From the NCBI GenBank assembly GCA_009691245.1, contig SHUM01000021.1, positions 1-51,927 of the forward strand: a stretch of DNA of 51,927 nucleotides. Reading direction: 5' to 3'. Made by a program: the position numbers and the translations under genes. The notes under the pieces were generated by a model. It was not told the origin of the DNA. It did not search any database and was given only the letters and a program-made list of their open reading frames with translations. This DNA comes from Acidobacteriota bacterium (GTDB taxonomy: Bacteria > Acidobacteriota > Terriglobia > 2-12-FULL-54-10). Shown in pieces: positions 1,020 through 34,587 of the stretch (the first letter of the stretch is position 1; each line of letters opens with the position of its first letter).

Positions 1020-1520
1020 TTACTTTCCTGTGGCCTTGAAGTCGAGGACCTTCAACTGGTAGGGGAGTTTCTTGTCGTTGACGATGTCGCCGCTGGCGAT
1101 CACTTCCTGGCCAAGCGCCAGCTTCGCGGAGTCGGCGGTCAGCGCGTATCTATCTTTCCCTGCCACCAAGACCAGGCCCGTTTCCTGCTTCTCCACTTTG
1201 CCGCGCGCCTGCACATGAAACTTCAAGACGGTGACGCTGGATTGGGCCACGGCTTCCCGCAGCAGAGCGGGCTGGAAGCTGGCGTTCGGTTTGTAGAGCA
1301 CCACGAACTGCTGGCGCTCGATGCTGATGGTTACTTTGTCAACGCCTTCCAGGCGTTTTAGCGCGATCTCCATGACCGCGGCGCAGCTGGGTCAGGTGAT
1401 GCCTTGCGCATCGGCGACCACTCGCTCCACTTGCGCGTGCGCTGCTGGGATGAGCGTGCCGCTGGCCAATACCATGAGCAACGCGAAAGTGGCGAGCGGG
1501 TTCCCGAATCGAAGCTGCAT
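1020..1520 (-). CDS. MerP-like periplasmic heavy-metal-binding protein with in-frame UGA (putative selenocysteine, UxxC)
   Basis: From ATG 1520 (RBS GAGGAG, 7 nt away) to TAA 1020 the frame is open except for one TGA at 1392-1394, giving 166 residues if decoded. Residues 1-29 are a signal peptide ending AHA. The mature protein begins as an HMA/MerP domain. The metal motif reads GIT-U-PSC, so the TGA is codon 43, at the first Cys of the usual GMTCxxC, and Cys46 is retained. Typical HMA sequence follows (LKRLEGVDKVTISIE). Residues ~105-166 form an extra, probably beta-rich, domain. MerP proteins capture Hg(II) in the periplasm and hand it to MerT, whose homologue lies 45 bp upstream. Selenocysteine is inferred from the codon position, the downstream hairpin and the neighbour. 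Without it the gene would be a nonsense pseudogene. ATG 1373 is the false start a gene caller would choose. Confidence 0.82.
1362..1380 (-). promoter_or_regulatory. Candidate bacterial SECIS hairpin in the MerP-like gene
   Basis: Eleven nucleotides after the TGA the sense strand forms CGCGGTC-ATGGA-GATCGCG. This is a 7-bp stem with one G-U pair and a 5-nt loop that starts 18 nt after the UGA. Bacterial SECIS elements have a loop roughly 16-37 nt after the UGA and usually a G early in the loop. Here the strict loop starts AU, but opening the G-U pair exposes GGUC, a motif also seen in the E. coli fdhF loop. SelB recruitment is inference. Confidence 0.55.
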
Positions 1521-1565: not shown

Positions 1566-1898
1566 CTACCGGTAACGGAGCCAGAGCGCGATCCATGCGC
1601 CGATCACGGCTAGGTTGATCAGTACGCTGGTGAACAGAATGGCTTTGATGCCCCAGGTGCGAAGCGTCTTTGGCCGACGCACGTATATCGCAATCTGATA
1701 AGCCAGCGACCCCAGCGCCAGCACAAAGAACACCGGCTGCAGCTTCTCCAGCCAGAACAGACATCCGGCACTGAGCAATCCAAACATTCCAAGTCCTGCC
1801 AGGACTTGCGGGAGCACTCATCAGCTCGGCGTTAGCAGTCCTGCGAAGATCGCTAGAATCCCTACTCGTTTTGGATCCATGTTTTTCATCGATACCAA
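1566..1898 (-). CDS. MerT-like membrane metal transporter with tandem in-frame UGA-UGA (putative Sec-Sec)
   Basis: The frame runs from TTG 1898 (GGAG 8 nt upstream; ATG 1889 and 1880 are alternatives) to TAG 1566, 110 residues, close to the ~116 of MerT. Two consecutive TGA codons (1821-1823, 1818-1820) are the only interruption. The local sequence FAGLLTPS-U-U-VLPQVLAG sits exactly where MerT helix 1 has its vicinal Cys pair, which accepts Hg(II) from MerP and carries it through the inner membrane. Downstream, LEKLQPVFFVLALGSLAY matches the MerT region around helix 2, and residues ~84-107 form helix 3. The MerT second cysteine pair in the cytoplasmic loop is missing. The conserved frame on both sides of the UGAs argues against decay. 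An ordinary caller would start at GTG 1817, after the key residues. Confidence 0.82.
1790..1808 (-). promoter_or_regulatory. Candidate bacterial SECIS hairpin in the MerT-like gene
   Basis: Nine nucleotides after the second UGA the sense strand forms a perfect 8-bp stem, CAAGTCCT-GGC-AGGACTTG, with a GGC triloop. The loop starts 17 nt after the second UGA and 20 nt after the first, inside the usual bacterial SECIS distance. Its first base is G, as in the known consensus. It lies fully within the coding sequence. The role in directing Sec insertion is inferred. Confidence 0.68.
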
Positions 1899-2180: not shown

Positions 2181-2894
2181 TTACAAGGCGGAGAGTTCGT
2201 CGAGCACAGTGCGCTCTTCGCTGTTGAACTGGCTCTGATATTCTTCGCTGGTCATGCGCTTCCCGCGCACCTCCGGGGACATGTCACGCAAGCTGCGGAA
2301 CTCTTCGAGCACAGCCATCCGGCGTTGCGGCGAAAGAACGCGCCAGTGCTTCTCGTAAATTTCTCGCGCCTTGCGCTGCTGCTCGGGGCGCATGTTTCTA
2401 AACACGGAGAGCCGACGGTCCAATGCCCTGCGCTGATCAAGGGGCATTTCCAGCAGCATCCGCAGACGCTCGCGCAGTTCGGCCTGCCGCTCGGGGGTGA
2501 GTTCCTGGAAGCGGCGGTTATTTTCGAGCACGCGCTCGCGGTCCGCGGGCTTCATGTTGCGTAGCCGCTCCAACATGCGCGGTGGAAGCGGCGGGCGCGC
2601 GTCTGGACGATTATTGAGTCGGCCAGCCGGTCCACGAGGTTCGCGTTGGCCCCCTCCCCGCCTTTCGCCTGCACGAGTGTCGGGAGGCCCAGCTTGCCAG
2701 AAAGCCATCCACAGCGGCTCAGCCTGATCTGACTGCTGATCCGAAAAGTAGTAGGACAGAGTCAGGTCTTCAGCAGTCGGCAGCTCAGTTTGCGACTTGG
2801 GCTGAGCTGCAAAGAGAGGAGCCCCGAGGGAGACAACGAGGGAGACCCCGAGGACGGCAATGGCAATCGCATTGTAAATCATCCTCAGGGTCAT
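2181..2894 (-). CDS. DUF3106-like exported protein
   Basis: A 237-residue protein with an N-terminal hydrophobic segment (residues ~7-29, ending LFAA) that looks like a signal peptide. A low-complexity Arg/Gly/Pro linker (~75-105) leads into repeated helical units of the type LTPERQAELRERLRML and LSPQRRMAVLEEFRSL, as in DUF3106 and reminiscent of Spy/CpxP-like LTxxQ proteins. It overlaps the anti-sigma gene by ATGA and is third in a sigma/anti-sigma operon. It may therefore be a periplasmic sensor or effector of that system. The exact role is unknown. Confidence 0.7.
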   Translation of the reverse strand: MTLRMIYNAIAIAVLGVSLVVSLGAPLFAAQPKSQTELPTAEDLTLSYYFSDQQSDQAEPLWMAFWQAGPPDTRAGERRGGGQREPRGPAGRLNNRPDARPPLPPRMLERLRNMKPADRERVLENNRRFQELTPERQAELRERLRMLLEMPLDQRRALDRRLSVFRNMRPEQQRKAREIYEKHWRVLSPQRRMAVLEEFRSLRDMSPEVRGKRMTSEEYQSQFNSEERTVLDELSAL

Positions 2895-3472
2895 GGCGTT
2901 GGGCCTTTCATTTCCTGCAATACCTCATCCTGCAATACTTCGAAATTGCGGAGCATCTCCCAGTCCTCAAGGACCAGCAGGTCCTGATACAGGGCGATAT
3001 CTTCATAGCCGTCAAGTGTAGCGACCACGGGACCGCCTGTTTGCCCTGAATCATCCAGCGCTGTTGATCCAGGGAAATAGCGAACCACGGAAAATGCCGC
3101 GATCATCACAACGGCTAGAGCACTGGGCAGCGCAGGCCGGGCAAGCGGAGCGAGAAAGGCTGCCGCAAAACGGCTCCACATTGATGTTGCGGGGGATGTT
3201 GCGGGGGATGCTGTGGGGGATATTGTCGCAGGCTCCTCCGAACGAATGCGTTGCAGCACCATCTGGTCAAACGAGGTGGATGGCTGAATGGCGGGCCATG
3301 AATCGAGCAGGAGGCTTACGTGGCTCACGTCGCCGGAAAATTCGCGCAAGCGGGCAGTGCACGGAACGCATCCGGAGAGGTGAGCCTCCAGCGAGGAGCG
3401 GGCACCGGCAGCAAGCGTGCCATCCACATAGTCGATGGCCAGATTTTCAAGGTCAACGCATTTCATAATCAT
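2891..3472 (-). CDS. Zinc-finger anti-sigma factor
   Basis: A 193-residue protein. The N-terminal zinc-binding anti-sigma motif His31-x3-Cys35-x2-Cys38 (EAHLSGCVPC) is followed by a linker and one transmembrane helix at ~117-135. A periplasmic tail rich in acidic residues completes it. Such proteins sequester an ECF sigma factor at the membrane until a signal releases it. The start ATG 3472 overlaps the sigma stop as ATGA. ATG 3466 is 9 nt after GGAGG and may be used instead. The linker contains a short SPAT repeat encoded by a 12-15 bp tandem repeat near 3180-3225. Confidence 0.85.
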   Translation of the reverse strand: MIMKCVDLENLAIDYVDGTLAAGARSSLEAHLSGCVPCTARLREFSGDVSHVSLLLDSWPAIQPSTSFDQMVLQRIRSEEPATISPTASPATSPATSMWSRFAAAFLAPLARPALPSALAVVMIAAFSVVRYFPGSTALDDSGQTGGPVVATLDGYEDIALYQDLLVLEDWEMLRNFEVLQDEVLQEMKGPTP

Positions 3473-4110
3473 TTCCCTCCCACCAGATGAGCCAGACGCA
3501 CTCGCAAGGCCTCGTATGCGCGAAACAGGAGCGACTTGACCGCCGATTCCGAGCAGCCGAGCGCCGCGGCGATCTGTCGGTAATCAAGCTCCTGATACTT
3601 ATGCAGGATCACTGCGGTCCGCTGATTCTCCGGCAACTCCGCCACGGCTCTGCGCACTTCCCAACCAAGCGAGCCGGCGACAAGCTGCTCCTCCGCTGTC
3701 GGCTCGGGTGAGCGCAGGCTTCGCGATACGGCGTTCTCCGGATCGTCCAGCGGCTCCATGTTCCGGGCACGACGACCATCGCGCAGATGATTGAGCGCGA
3801 CGTTCGTGGCGATGCAATACAGCCAGGTGGTGAACTTGGCGCTGACTTCATACTTTTCCCGTGCGCGATAGACGCGCAGGAACACGTCCTGCGAAAGTTC
3901 CTCGGCGATGGCGGCGTTGTGAACCATACGATACAGAAAGCCCACAATTGGATCGCGGTGCCGGGACAGCAGTCCGGCGAAGGCAGCTTCGTCTCCCGAC
4001 TTTACCAGCAGCATCAACTCAGTGTCGTTGGGTGGTTCTCCGACGACAAGTTTCGCGACAGTCCCAGTTTTCACCACGGCGCTGACAGCGCCCACTGCCA
4101 CAGCTTCCAT
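3469..4110 (-). CDS. ECF-type RNA polymerase sigma factor (sigma-70 family)
   Basis: A 213-residue protein. Region 2 (~50-112) contains FLYRMVHNAAIAEELSQDVF and FTTWLYCIATNVALNHLRD. Region 4 (~152-205) contains LPENQRTAVILHKYQELDYR and a helix-turn-helix (IAAALGCSESAVKSLLFRA). There is no region 1.1 or 3, typical of group 4 sigma factors. The first ~25 residues are poorly conserved and ATG 4110 lacks a clear RBS, so the true start may be further in. It is co-transcribed with the anti-sigma gene. Target promoters are not identified here. Confidence 0.9.
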   Translation of the reverse strand: MEAVAVGAVSAVVKTGTVAKLVVGEPPNDTELMLLVKSGDEAAFAGLLSRHRDPIVGFLYRMVHNAAIAEELSQDVFLRVYRAREKYEVSAKFTTWLYCIATNVALNHLRDGRRARNMEPLDDPENAVSRSLRSPEPTAEEQLVAGSLGWEVRRAVAELPENQRTAVILHKYQELDYRQIAAALGCSESAVKSLLFRAYEALRVRLAHLVGGK

Positions 4111-4281
4111 ACAATGTATTAAACCCTATTCCTGACAGTAAGTTTCGAATCTTTTTGCTAGTTTGGTGTCCCGAGAGTAACGATGGATCGCAATGCCAGG
4201 GATGTTCGGGATAGAGGCGCGGAGGTATGTGAACCTACTCGACCGGACTCCTGTAACTTATTGGGAATACGACTGTTGTGG

Positions 4282-6492
4282 CTATCGGCTTTGCGCCTGA
4301 ATTTCCGCCAGGATGGTGTCCAGGCGTTTGAGCGACGCGGTGGCCCCTCCAAATCGTGACGCAAGGTAGAGGTCTGTAAAGCGATCCACAGGAATTCGCA
4401 GCGGGTCTGCAAGAGATTTGGCGAACTCTCGTGCCGTTTGATGCGGAGGTTTAGTCGATCCCCGTTCGGCCAAAGTTTGGAGCAGGCTCAAATAGACCAG
4501 TGTGGCATCCTCCGGTCTGGATTCCCCCAGCCGGGCGCGCCGACGCATGGACCAGTGCCGCCACATCCGAACGATGGCACCGCGACCAAACAGTATGGCC
4601 CAGGCTGCCGCAAGAATGGATACAACGACCGGAAGCCATCCGACCTGTGTCGCTCCTTGTTCAGCCTTGCCACGCAGGAAAGCAAGCAGATTCTTGTATT
4701 GATCGTTGAAATACTCCCGGGAATCCCGCCGAGCGCCGCGCGACGTGCGCTCAATCTGGCGAGCCAGGGTGGCCTGATGCACGAAATCGTAGTTGATTAC
4801 CCACTCCTCCCAGAAGGTTCGGAAGGCATCCATGTAGAGCGTGAGCCGCCCCAGCGTCGGTACTTCGGAAGTCCGTCCTGCTGCTGGAGTGGGATCGAAA
4901 CTGATCCAGCCATAGGTGGGGAAATAAACTTCCACCCAGCTATGCGCATCGCTGGCCCGGACCGTGTAATGATCGGATACGTCATTGTAACTGCCTTGCA
5001 GAAAGCCATTCACCAGACGAGTGGGTATGCCCTGAGAGCGCAGCATCACGGTCATGGCCGAGGCGAAAAACTCGCAGTGTCCGGCTCGGGATTCAAACAG
5101 GAAATAAGCGATTGGATCGTCCGGCGTCGCGGTCGGCAGGTTCAGCGTGTACCCATATTGGGATTGCAGATACTTCTCGACTGCACTGGCCTTATCAAAA
5201 TTATTTTCCGATGAGGCGGTAACTGTGGCTGCCAGCTCGCGCACGCGCGGATCCGTTTCAGGTAACTGTAGAAATGCCGCAGTGATTTCCGCTGGAATCC
5301 TCGATAGGGTTGGGGCGCGCAGCATATTCGCGGTGGGCTGCGCAATATCAGAGATAGCCGAGTAGCGCGTAATGGCGCCGGGATTGGGCGGCATGTAAAT
5401 ACTGCCGGATTCATCCTGTCGCAAAACTCTGAACGAGCCACTCACTTCGAGTGTCTGGGGAACCAGAAAAATCACATCCGTTGAAAGCGGCTGCAACTTG
5501 ATGGTGTAATCCAGCTGCTGCGGTGGCAGGCCAGGATGGGCAAGTTCACGGCGGAAAGTGAAAATACGGTTGCCAGGAATTGCCTGGGTGGCGTCGGAGG
5601 GATTGGACCATCGCTTTCCGTCAAAATTGCTCAATCCCACGCCACGCCATTTAACGCTTTGGAACGGATTCAGACCCGGCGCGCTGACATGCATCACGAC
5701 GTCGGAAGATTGCTTGATCCTGCCGATCTGTCCGAGTTCAACCTCATCGGAGAACCCGGTCATACGGTCGCCGGGGCGGGCCAGGGAACTGAAGTATCCG
5801 CGGCGGGCGCGAGGCAGGACGAAGAAGAGCGCTACCGAAAGCAGCGTTACCCCAAAACAGATCAACGCGGCGGTAGATCCCAGCGCGGTGCCCAGCCTGA
5901 CTTCGGTGGCCGTCAGTTGAGGTGCCGCTACGCGGTCCCGGGCGCGCTTGATCTCAAAACTGGTAAAGGTGCAAATCGCCAGAAACACAAATACGCAAAA
6001 CAGCACCAGGAACGAAGTCTGGATGGTCAGTGTGGATGCCGCCAGCATCTGGGCAAAGGCCAGAGCCGATAGATAGACATAGTCGCGCGTCTGATGGGCG
6101 GAGAACAACTTAACGGCGGCCAGAAAGAATAACAAGTGGATGGTGGCCAGCAGCACGCGTTCAAATATATTGACGGCTCCGGCTTCCAGCACGACGATAT
6201 CAATCAGGAAAAATGGGATGTAAGTGATCGCCAGAGTCTTGACGAGACCAGGGGAAAAACCCCAACATCGTCGGCGTGCGAGCATGATGGCCCGGATGGC
6301 GAGAGGGACCGCCATGACCGTTGTGGTGAAGGAGTCCAATTGACCCGTGAAGGTCAGCGTCAGGAATCCAGTGGCCAGCAGGCTGAAAAGGGAAATCGCG
6401 AAGAAGCGGTCAATCGGATCCGCACCAGCCTGAAGCGAGACCAGCGAAGAATAGGATTGCGGATGAGCGGGTTGTGCGATTGCGTGAGCCAT
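4282..6492 (-). CDS. TgpA-like membrane protein with transglutaminase domain (DUF3488/DUF4129)
   Basis: A 736-residue protein. Residues ~30-235 hold several membrane helices (DUF3488). A large extracytoplasmic part contains a transglutaminase-like core with the catalytic triad Cys473 (AGHCEFF), His517 (DAHSWVEV) and Asp533 (SFDPTP). A further membrane helix at ~622-640 precedes a cytoplasmic C-terminal DUF4129-like tail (LYLASRFGG). The architecture matches TgpA of Pseudomonas, an inner-membrane protein with periplasmic transglutaminase activity. The substrate in this organism is unknown. The usual partner genes (MoxR ATPase, DUF58) are not adjacent. Confidence 0.88.
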   Translation of the reverse strand: MAHAIAQPAHPQSYSSLVSLQAGADPIDRFFAISLFSLLATGFLTLTFTGQLDSFTTTVMAVPLAIRAIMLARRRCWGFSPGLVKTLAITYIPFFLIDIVVLEAGAVNIFERVLLATIHLLFFLAAVKLFSAHQTRDYVYLSALAFAQMLAASTLTIQTSFLVLFCVFVFLAICTFTSFEIKRARDRVAAPQLTATEVRLGTALGSTAALICFGVTLLSVALFFVLPRARRGYFSSLARPGDRMTGFSDEVELGQIGRIKQSSDVVMHVSAPGLNPFQSVKWRGVGLSNFDGKRWSNPSDATQAIPGNRIFTFRRELAHPGLPPQQLDYTIKLQPLSTDVIFLVPQTLEVSGSFRVLRQDESGSIYMPPNPGAITRYSAISDIAQPTANMLRAPTLSRIPAEITAAFLQLPETDPRVRELAATVTASSENNFDKASAVEKYLQSQYGYTLNLPTATPDDPIAYFLFESRAGHCEFFASAMTVMLRSQGIPTRLVNGFLQGSYNDVSDHYTVRASDAHSWVEVYFPTYGWISFDPTPAAGRTSEVPTLGRLTLYMDAFRTFWEEWVINYDFVHQATLARQIERTSRGARRDSREYFNDQYKNLLAFLRGKAEQGATQVGWLPVVVSILAAAWAILFGRGAIVRMWRHWSMRRRARLGESRPEDATLVYLSLLQTLAERGSTKPPHQTAREFAKSLADPLRIPVDRFTDLYLASRFGGATASLKRLDTILAEIQAQSR

Positions 6493-32658: not shown

Positions 32659-34587
32659 CTATTCCAGGTTCATGCGGCGCAGCAGGTCGTGGTAGCGCGG
32701 GTCGTTGCGCATTGAATCGAACCACGGGTGGAACTTTAGCAATGTCATCGAGCTGGCTCGCTCTTCGTAGGCCTTTTCCAGCCATTCAAATGCGCGGTCT
32801 TTATCGCCCAGGCCGCTGTAAACCACCGCCACCCAATATGGCTGAACAAATTTCGTTTTCGAGGCTTCAATCATGCGGTCCAGAATGCTTTGTGCCTCGG
32901 CTCTTTCCCCGGCTACGGCGTATGCATATCCCAAGGTGCCAAGGTTCTGGCTCGAACCCGTGGCGAGTTCCACAGACTTCTCCAATTCCCGGATCGCCTC
33001 GGGATACATCTTCTTGCCCAGGTACGACCGTCCCGCTTGCCGGCGCGCACCGGCAGATTCCGGGTCGAGTTCGATAGCTTTCCGATCCCAAATCATTGCC
33101 GCGTCGTATTGTCCCGCATATCCAAGAAGTTCTCCAACAACTCTGGTTATGGTGACAGAAAGCGGGTCTAGTTGCTGGGCGCGGTTCACCTCCGCCAGCC
33201 CCTCATCGAGACTACCAGCGCTTGCCAAAAACCATAGACCATACCATTGGTGGGCCAGCGAATAATTGGGGTCCAATTCCATGGCGCGCCTAAACTCTCG
33301 TTCCGCGGTCGGCCGATCGCGGTCATAAAGGAGTGCGATATAAGCGAGTGATGCATGTGCCTCGGCAAGAGTGTCATCCAGTTGGAGAGCTTTCAGCGCG
33401 GCCGCCTTCGCCTTGGGCATGACTTGCTTCGCAGAGGCGAAGGTATAATTTTCCTGAGAGCTGTATGTGTCGGCCAAACCGCTGAGGGCGAGAGCGTAGG
33501 TGGGGTCGTTCCCGACGGCCTGTTGGAAGTATTCGATGGCCTTGTTGAATCCTTCTTCCGACTTCTTGTTCCACCAGAAGCGGCCTTTGACGTACGCCTG
33601 ATACGCCTCCGTATTCTCCGTGCCGCGCTTGGCGAGCTTTTGCTGGTCCGCCCCGGTGAGCTTCAGTCTTAGTTTGTCGGAGATGTCGCGGGCGATCTCT
33701 TGTTGCAGGGCGAAGATGTCCGTGGCCTTGCGCAGGTATTGCTGCCCCCAGATTTGGTGATTGTCAGTCGCATCAATCAATTCAACGCTGACCATGATGC
33801 TGTCGCCCACCTGGCGCACCTGTCCTTTGAACACCGCGCCTACGCCGAGTTGCTGGCCGATCACGTTGGCGGTCACTTCCTTGCCTTTGTAGCTGAAGGC
33901 GGAGTCGCGCGACATGACTCGCAACTGCGGCAGTTGCGAGAGGCTGGAGATAAGCGACTCGGCGATGCCGTCGCCCAAATATTCAGCGTCCGCATCGCCG
34001 CTGCTGTTGACCAGCGGCAGCACGGCGAGCGAGTTGATGGCGTCGCCTGGTGTGCCCGTATTGCCGCCCGCGCCATTGCCGCCGGGGCCGCCACGGCGCA
34101 GGTAATACCCCGCACCAACTCCAATGGCCAGCGCGACCGTCGCGGCGATGCCGACCGCGACGTAGCGCCCGCGCCTTGCTCGCTCCGTGGCCCGCTCCGT
34201 GGCCGGCGCAGCGGCTGGCCCGGCGACACTGGTGGCACCCGTGGAGCCAGCAGTGCCGGGCGAAATTGTCCCGAACTGTTCACGGAGGTAGCGCACGAAG
34301 TGGACGGTGACCATCACGCCATAAAGCAGCAGGAAGAAGCCCGACGAGATGTTGAGGGCGACGCGGAAGGCGGGTTGGTCGGAGTGCATCCAGTGCTCGA
34401 AGACGAACTCGACGGCGAAGCCCACGACCAGGATGATGGCGTCCTGCAGCAGGATGCGCAGCAGGGCGAAGATTTCCTCGAGCATCCCGACGGTCTGGTG
34501 CCGCACGTTGCCGCGCAGATGCTCCCATTCCTCGGAGCCAGATGGGCGTTGTGACTTGTCAGGGGCGTTGTCGGGAGTAGGGTGCAT
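32659..34587 (-). CDS. TolB/FlgO-like domain protein with TPRs, membrane-anchored
   Basis: A 642-residue protein. Two hydrophobic segments near 50-66 and 81-102 are followed by an Ala/Gly-rich linker and a third helix near 144-165. Residues ~185-310 form the TolB N-terminal-like domain (INSLAVLPLVNSSGDADAEY, LRVMSRDSAFSYKG, VSVELIDATDNHQIW). Residues ~325-640 hold TPR repeats (AIEYFQQAVGNDPTYALALS, EFRRAMELDPNYSLAHQWYG). This architecture often follows a Ser/Thr kinase or winged-helix domain; here it is replaced by membrane helices. The role is unknown, possibly signalling at the membrane. Confidence 0.82.
   Translation of the reverse strand: MHPTPDNAPDKSQRPSGSEEWEHLRGNVRHQTVGMLEEIFALLRILLQDAIILVVGFAVEFVFEHWMHSDQPAFRVALNISSGFFLLLYGVMVTVHFVRYLREQFGTISPGTAGSTGATSVAGPAAAPATERATERARRGRYVAVGIAATVALAIGVGAGYYLRRGGPGGNGAGGNTGTPGDAINSLAVLPLVNSSGDADAEYLGDGIAESLISSLSQLPQLRVMSRDSAFSYKGKEVTANVIGQQLGVGAVFKGQVRQVGDSIMVSVELIDATDNHQIWGQQYLRKATDIFALQQEIARDISDKLRLKLTGADQQKLAKRGTENTEAYQAYVKGRFWWNKKSEEGFNKAIEYFQQAVGNDPTYALALSGLADTYSSQENYTFASAKQVMPKAKAAALKALQLDDTLAEAHASLAYIALLYDRDRPTAEREFRRAMELDPNYSLAHQWYGLWFLASAGSLDEGLAEVNRAQQLDPLSVTITRVVGELLGYAGQYDAAMIWDRKAIELDPESAGARRQAGRSYLGKKMYPEAIRELEKSVELATGSSQNLGTLGYAYAVAGERAEAQSILDRMIEASKTKFVQPYWVAVVYSGLGDKDRAFEWLEKAYEERASSMTLLKFHPWFDSMRNDPRYHDLLRRMNLE

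Follow-up and report, generated by a model that had tools for sequence, protein, structure and literature searches.

Can one RNA hairpin direct the insertion of selenocysteine (Sec, U) at two adjacent UGA codons? This question was raised by a locus in contig SHUM01000021.1 of an Acidobacteriota bacterium (assembly GCA_009691245.1), of which we analyzed the whole stretch of 51,927 nucleotides (nt), hereafter the window. The gene under study lies on the minus strand and encodes a predicted MerT-like transporter, the frame of which runs through two consecutive in-frame TGAs (UGA 1 and UGA 2) shortly before a hairpin. The results revealed that this arrangement is conserved in all 11 genes of this kind that were found, and the hairpin very likely represents a bacterial selenocysteine insertion sequence (bSECIS), located in a MerT-like mRNA in which the metal-binding Cys-Cys pair has been replaced by Sec-Sec.

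The tandem UGA and the hairpin behind it

When TGA was read as U, the minus-strand frame yielded ...ILAIFAGLLTPSUUVLPQVLAGLG..., with approximately 107 residues from the likely start. The codon-position bias typical of coding sequence followed one frame and was continuous on both sides of the UGAs. The original prediction had placed a perfect 8-base pair (bp) hairpin with a GGC loop at 1790-1808, within the coding sequence, and we found it there as CAAGTCCT-GGC-AGGACTTG on the minus strand (Table 1). The distance of 17 nt after the second UGA that had been claimed for the hairpin applies to the apical loop, which starts 17 nt past UGA 2 and 20 nt past UGA 1, whereas the stem itself starts 9 nt past UGA 2.

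We compared this geometry with the bSECIS constraints listed in PMC13188914 (Fig. 2), namely a loop of 3–9 nt, the first two positions of which contain G, a stem of 4–16 bp, 16–37 nt from the UGA to the apical loop, and a minimum free energy of -7.5 kcal/mol or lower. The 8-bp stem and the 3-nt loop fell within these sizes, the loop was GGC in all 11 genes with two adjacent UGAs (UU genes), and the minimum free energy of the 31-nt piece was -10.6 kcal/mol in the window gene and -10.6 to -15.3 kcal/mol across the 11. The distance was within 16–37 nt from either UGA, as had been proposed for the first as well as the second, and the claimed fit to the bacterial model was borne out from both. As in the consensus given in PMC13188914, an in-frame UGA stands at a Cys site; the present locus differs in having two adjacent UGAs upstream of a single hairpin.

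Perfect stems of at least 8 bp with a 3-nt loop numbered 3 in the window, and 12 first-order Markov resamplings gave 1.5 on average. The 57 nt from UGA 1 folded with the 8-bp stem, at an energy z of -0.81; the hairpin alone is therefore unremarkable. Its location, by contrast, is unusual. A Watson-Crick stem of at least 8 bp that obeyed the bSECIS loop and distance rules followed 7 of the 1460 TGAs in the window (both strands, UGA 1 and UGA 2 included). Among the 38 TGATGA sites in the window, a stem longer than 5 bp was present only after the pair at 1823..1818. The stem count and the z value gave no exclusion of a chance hairpin, and chance was ruled out because the hairpin was conserved in 11/11 UU homologues. 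Elsewhere in the window, a further perfect stem of 10 bp with a 3-nt loop was observed at 33918-33940, and the only Rfam match at gathering score was transfer-messenger RNA.

Conservation of the UU genes and of the stem

The 399 genomes of the class, searched at an E value of 0.001, gave 12 matches, of which ten were strong and all had exactly two internal TGAs; the two others were weak and lacked TGA. A search of 396 genomes of the phylum gave 7 matches, comprising the window's own gene, one UU gene of another class (G517), and five weak matches without TGA. The UU genes found, 11 in number, span two classes of the phylum. No additional UU gene came from smaller searches, which covered the family of G034 (7 of 11) as well as the class of G517 (1 of 38) and the window's own order (2 of 7). 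Plasmid copies of the gene gave no match by tblastn, and a pattern search of viral contigs gave none either. A contig of Candidatus Sulfopaludibacter (Acidobacteriota; L022) was 91–96% identical to the window and ends inside the gene (residues 1–15 only), before the hairpin; we place the window genome near this taxon.

No close Cys-Cys form was present among the homologue matches in the 399 class and 396 phylum genomes. Of the seven TGA-less matches, five were aligned; the alignment omitted L033, the frame of which looked mercuric-reductase-like, and L036, the frame of which seemed spurious. A Cys-Cys site was identified in five of the seven (L020, L021, L034, L035, and, doubtfully, L036). The hairpin was absent from these five, which are distant relatives and provide no strict control.

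The relationship to MerT was examined by using family models and a profile alignment (A1) of 9 of the 11 UU genes, which omitted L018 because of a masked stretch and L032 because it was identified at a later point. The Pfam MerT model (PF02411) gave the window protein 20 bits and missed its curated cut-off of 32.9; at an E value of 0.01 or lower it matched 6 of the 9 UU members (best 2e-5), and the NCBIfam MerT and MerTP models matched 7 and 8 of the 9, respectively, weakly. The hhalign comparison of the UU family with five Cys-Cys MerT-like proteins gave a probability of 98.1 and an E value of 7.7e-14 over 77 columns, with UU standing opposite the invariant Cys-Cys. These alignments indicate that the predicted protein is MerT-like and that its two UGAs occupy the vicinal Cys-Cys site of MerT. 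The predicted structure was poor (mean predicted local distance difference test score 61.4), a PDB search with it returned nothing at an E value of 0.001 or lower, and it was not used.

We then looked for two patterns that the original prediction had named as speaking against it, namely UU homologues lacking a stem at this distance and uncompensated stem changes, and neither was found. In 11/11 UU genes, TGATGA was followed by GTG, six more letters, and the stem with its GGC loop at the same distance. The stem occurred as CAAGTCCT/AGGACTTG in 8 genes and as CCGGTCCT/AGGACTGG in 3 (L015-L017); in the latter version one A-U pair had become C-G by changes on both arms and another A-U had become G-U, and all 88 pair cells (11 genes × 8 pairs) were standard. 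When the 3' arm was slid by 1–3 columns, pairing was 22.7 to 62.5% and no compensation was present. The covariation score was reached by 5 of 500 shuffles. The compensating change on the 3' arm is a synonymous one, Leu CTT to CTG, which tracks its stem partner.

Codon usage within the stem was similarly constrained. The stem codons Val GTC, Leu CTG, Ala GCA, and Gly GGA were identical in all 11 genes. Columns with an invariant residue also had an invariant codon in 4 of 5 cases inside the stem versus 1 of 20 outside (Fisher p 0.0019), a comparison in which neither column +1 (the invariant GTG) nor column +10 (a variable Gly codon) was counted; if both are taken as outside, that count becomes 2 of 22. 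Third-position divergence was 0.145 in the hairpin codons, 0.607 upstream, and 0.538 downstream; L018 codons containing N were skipped in the codon-identity and third-position counts. Between the window gene and the UU gene of the other class, 19/19 hairpin letters were identical versus 186/290 in the remainder. These findings indicate that the stem is under selection. Outside the stem, the Val codon right after UGA 2 (1815-1817, minus) was GTG in 11/11, and this invariant GTG may be part of the signal.

Table 1. Features of the MerT-like locus and its MerP-like neighbor in the window
Feature	Position	Strand	Basis or remark
MerT-like transporter gene, read through two in-frame TGAs	1566..1889	minus	start inferred at 1889 or 1880; stop 1568..1566
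UGA 1 (first TGA)	1821..1823	minus	opposite first Cys of MerT Cys-Cys
UGA 2 (second TGA)	1818..1820	minus	opposite second Cys of MerT Cys-Cys
9-nt spacer GTGCTCCCG between UGA 2 and stem	1809..1817	minus	homologue comparison
Candidate bSECIS hairpin	1808..1790	minus	8-bp perfect stem, GGC loop, in mRNA
Hairpin 5' arm CAAGTCCT	1801..1808	minus	folding and homologue pairing
Apical loop GGC (GCC on plus strand)	1798..1800	minus	folding and homologues
Hairpin 3' arm AGGACTTG	1790..1797	minus	folding and homologue pairing
MerP-like HMA-domain gene with one in-frame TGA	1020..1520	minus	adjoins MerT-like gene
In-frame TGA of MerP-like gene, motif GITUPSC	1392..1394	minus	translation and neighbor comparison

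Selenocysteine machinery, rival explanations, and proposed mechanism

The window genome encodes tRNA-Sec (anticodon tca) together with SelB (360.6 bits), SelA (551.8), and SelD (358.2), the proteins all scoring over cut-off. At an E value of 1e-60 or lower, SelB was present in all ten UU genomes of the class versus 286 of 399 genomes overall (Fisher p 0.034). One UU genome (G006) held two SelB matches over cut-off, on C197 and C17 (432.9 and 380.7 bits).

SelD was found in all 11 UU genomes, with one TGA in 10 and none in a partial match in G060. The SelD gene of the window genome (L050, C9:54052-54990) holds one internal TGA and the hairpin GTCCAAA-GGT-TTTGGAC, the GGU loop of which lies 20 nt past the UGA. 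Across the ten SelD UGA genes, the best hairpin had a GGN 3-nt loop at 20 nt in 6, making this the commonest loop distance and the same as that of UGA 1. The remaining best hairpins comprised GGC at 17 nt (L052) and two at 18 and 33 nt, and one gene had none that obeyed the rule; several SelD hairpins were weaker than -7.5 kcal/mol on their own. These SelD hairpins show that the loop type and both distances (17 and 20 nt) occur in single-UGA genes of these genomes.

Several observations weigh against the interpretation of the hairpin as a bSECIS. The structure was kept by compensatory change, but because the three variant sequences are related, their covariation amounts to a single event in one lineage, and the cell counts do not represent independent events. 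The protein constraint makes the stem easier to obtain than free chance would, since random synonymous codons yielded the 8-bp stem in register with a probability of 0.015–0.020 for the window peptide and 0.03–0.06 for the peptide of the CCGGTCCT/AGGACTGG variant. The bSECIS model is permissive: 401 of the 1460 window TGAs were followed by a stem of at least 4 bp that obeyed its rules on loop and distance. The 31-nt piece of three of the 11 genes (L012, L018, and L019) folds slightly better otherwise than into the exact 8-bp hairpin, and no more than 6 of the 10 SelD genes had the GGN hairpin at 20 nt. Moreover, Escherichia coli recodes one UGA at 30–40%, according to PMC4513850; by our own arithmetic from this rate, two UGAs in a row, if independent, would give approximately 10–16% full-length protein, which would be costly.

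Among the alternatives, the one that survives best, although we consider it unlikely, is that the hairpin acts as a bSECIS for one UGA only, with the other read by a near-cognate tRNA or limiting the yield. The 20-nt SelD loops match UGA 1 only and are in keeping with this explanation, but both UGAs were kept in 11/11 genes, and no UC, CU, or sense-codon form was present among these homologues. In addition, 17 nt lies inside the published range and is the distance of the GGC loop in the best SelD hairpin of L052.

The stem could also result incidentally from codon usage and the conserved peptide VLAGLG, or it could act as a DNA operator rather than as an RNA signal. We regard this as highly improbable: the peptide is indeed conserved, 1.5–6% of its synonymous versions form the stem, and the site is a DNA palindrome, but like residues elsewhere vary in codon whereas the four stem codons do not, the Leu codon switches with its stem partner, and the distance to the tandem UGAs is fixed. 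Equally remote is a true stop at TGATGA, with an incidental hairpin and with translation re-initiated either at the GTG that follows or at the overlapping ATG, an explanation that we discarded on the frame evidence; an automatic open reading frame finder starts at that GTG or ATG and the GTG is invariant in 11/11, but the coding bias keeps to one frame across the UGAs, the ATG frame ends early in some homologues (16 amino acids in L015, L017, and L018; 41 in L019), the MerT homology crosses the site with UU opposite Cys-Cys, and the conserved first helix would be cut. The evidence from frame, codons, and covariation tells against both of these explanations.

A single bSECIS serving two adjacent UGAs is most likely, and we infer that both UGAs are decoded as Sec, that they share one hairpin, that the protein is placed in the membrane, and that its substrate is a metal. 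Under this arrangement, SelB with guanosine triphosphate and Sec-tRNA-Sec would dock on the GGC-loop hairpin and, with UGA 1 in the A site and the loop 20 nt away, deliver Sec. The ribosome would then advance by one codon, and SelB would be recharged or rebind, or a second SelB would arrive, after which UGA 2 would be read likewise with the loop 17 nt away, still within 16–37 nt. The hairpin would then be unwound and its own codons translated. The product would carry a vicinal Sec-Sec at the end of the first membrane segment and may handle soft metals, with a MerP-like partner encoded next door.

Neighboring genes, known selenoproteins, and meaning

An HMA-type gene was present beside 9 of the 11 UU loci, and the first Cys of its motif was U in two (the window and L011) and Cys in seven; no such neighbor was seen beside L017 or L032. 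L037 was read as protein only. The hairpins that follow the MerP-like TGA in the window (L010) and in L011 fit the bSECIS rule only imperfectly, with an AUGGA loop at 18 nt lacking an early G and a GGA loop at 41 nt. The same strand upstream of the UU gene (2181-6492, minus) encodes a DUF3106 protein, a putative zinc-finger protein, a sigma-70 family factor, and a TgpA/transglutaminase-like protein. Inspection by eye of the open reading frames near 10 UU loci showed no merA or merR.

An inventory from 2026 of 119 prokaryotic selenoprotein families (PMC13188914, Table 1) includes a MerT selenoprotein, the single Sec of which lies in C/SxxU, as well as two-Sec families of the UxxU type, and no UU motif is present among the 119. 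No report of a bacterial UU protein or a UU MerT was found among the papers listed in literature searches, which covered open-licence papers only. The putative mercuric transport selenoprotein (PF02411, ABB16073) and the NCBIfam family NF045683 (MerT_CopZ_Se) resemble the UU family in being MerT-type transporters with Sec. However, ABB16073 is listed with one Sec in C/SxxU, in contrast to UU at the vicinal Cys-Cys here, and NF045683 matches 4 of the 9 UU members, weakly (best E 0.0023). The UxxU metal-binding (seleno)protein NF041115 likewise has two close UGAs in a bacterial metal-binding protein, but its two Sec stand three residues apart and are thus not vicinal; the MerP-like protein of the window has UxxC and scored 44.5 bits against this model (cut-off 95).

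In eukaryotes, SECIS elements sit in the 3' untranslated region. Consecutive Sec-Sec in one protein is known from the algal PDI_e with its GUGUU motif, which PMC7539508 terms the first Sec-Sec protein; as described there, it comes from eukaryotic algae, and its protein family is unrelated to the MerT-like gene. The original prediction had called one element for two UGAs mechanistically unusual, which was a fair judgment, but two close Sec residues, in bacterial UxxU proteins and in algal Sec-Sec, had already been described.

Judged from sequence, the candidate element is a canonical bSECIS in a new setting, that of a tandem UGA. It is probable that the locus represents a dedicated bacterial design of one hairpin for two UGAs (20 and 17 nt), an obligate Sec-Sec soft-metal site in a membrane transporter, and the first prokaryotic Sec-Sec family; the site is called obligate because no Cys form was seen among close relatives. 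As one of the rare cases in nature in which a single signal appears to serve two neighboring codons, the locus offers a natural test of whether one SECIS can drive two successive insertions by SelB, with the hairpin 3 nt nearer to the ribosome the second time. The findings further point to a family of transporters that may have exchanged both thiols of the metal-binding pair for selenium; such a family would be relevant to the handling of soft metals by bacteria and to the question of why selenocysteine repays its cost.
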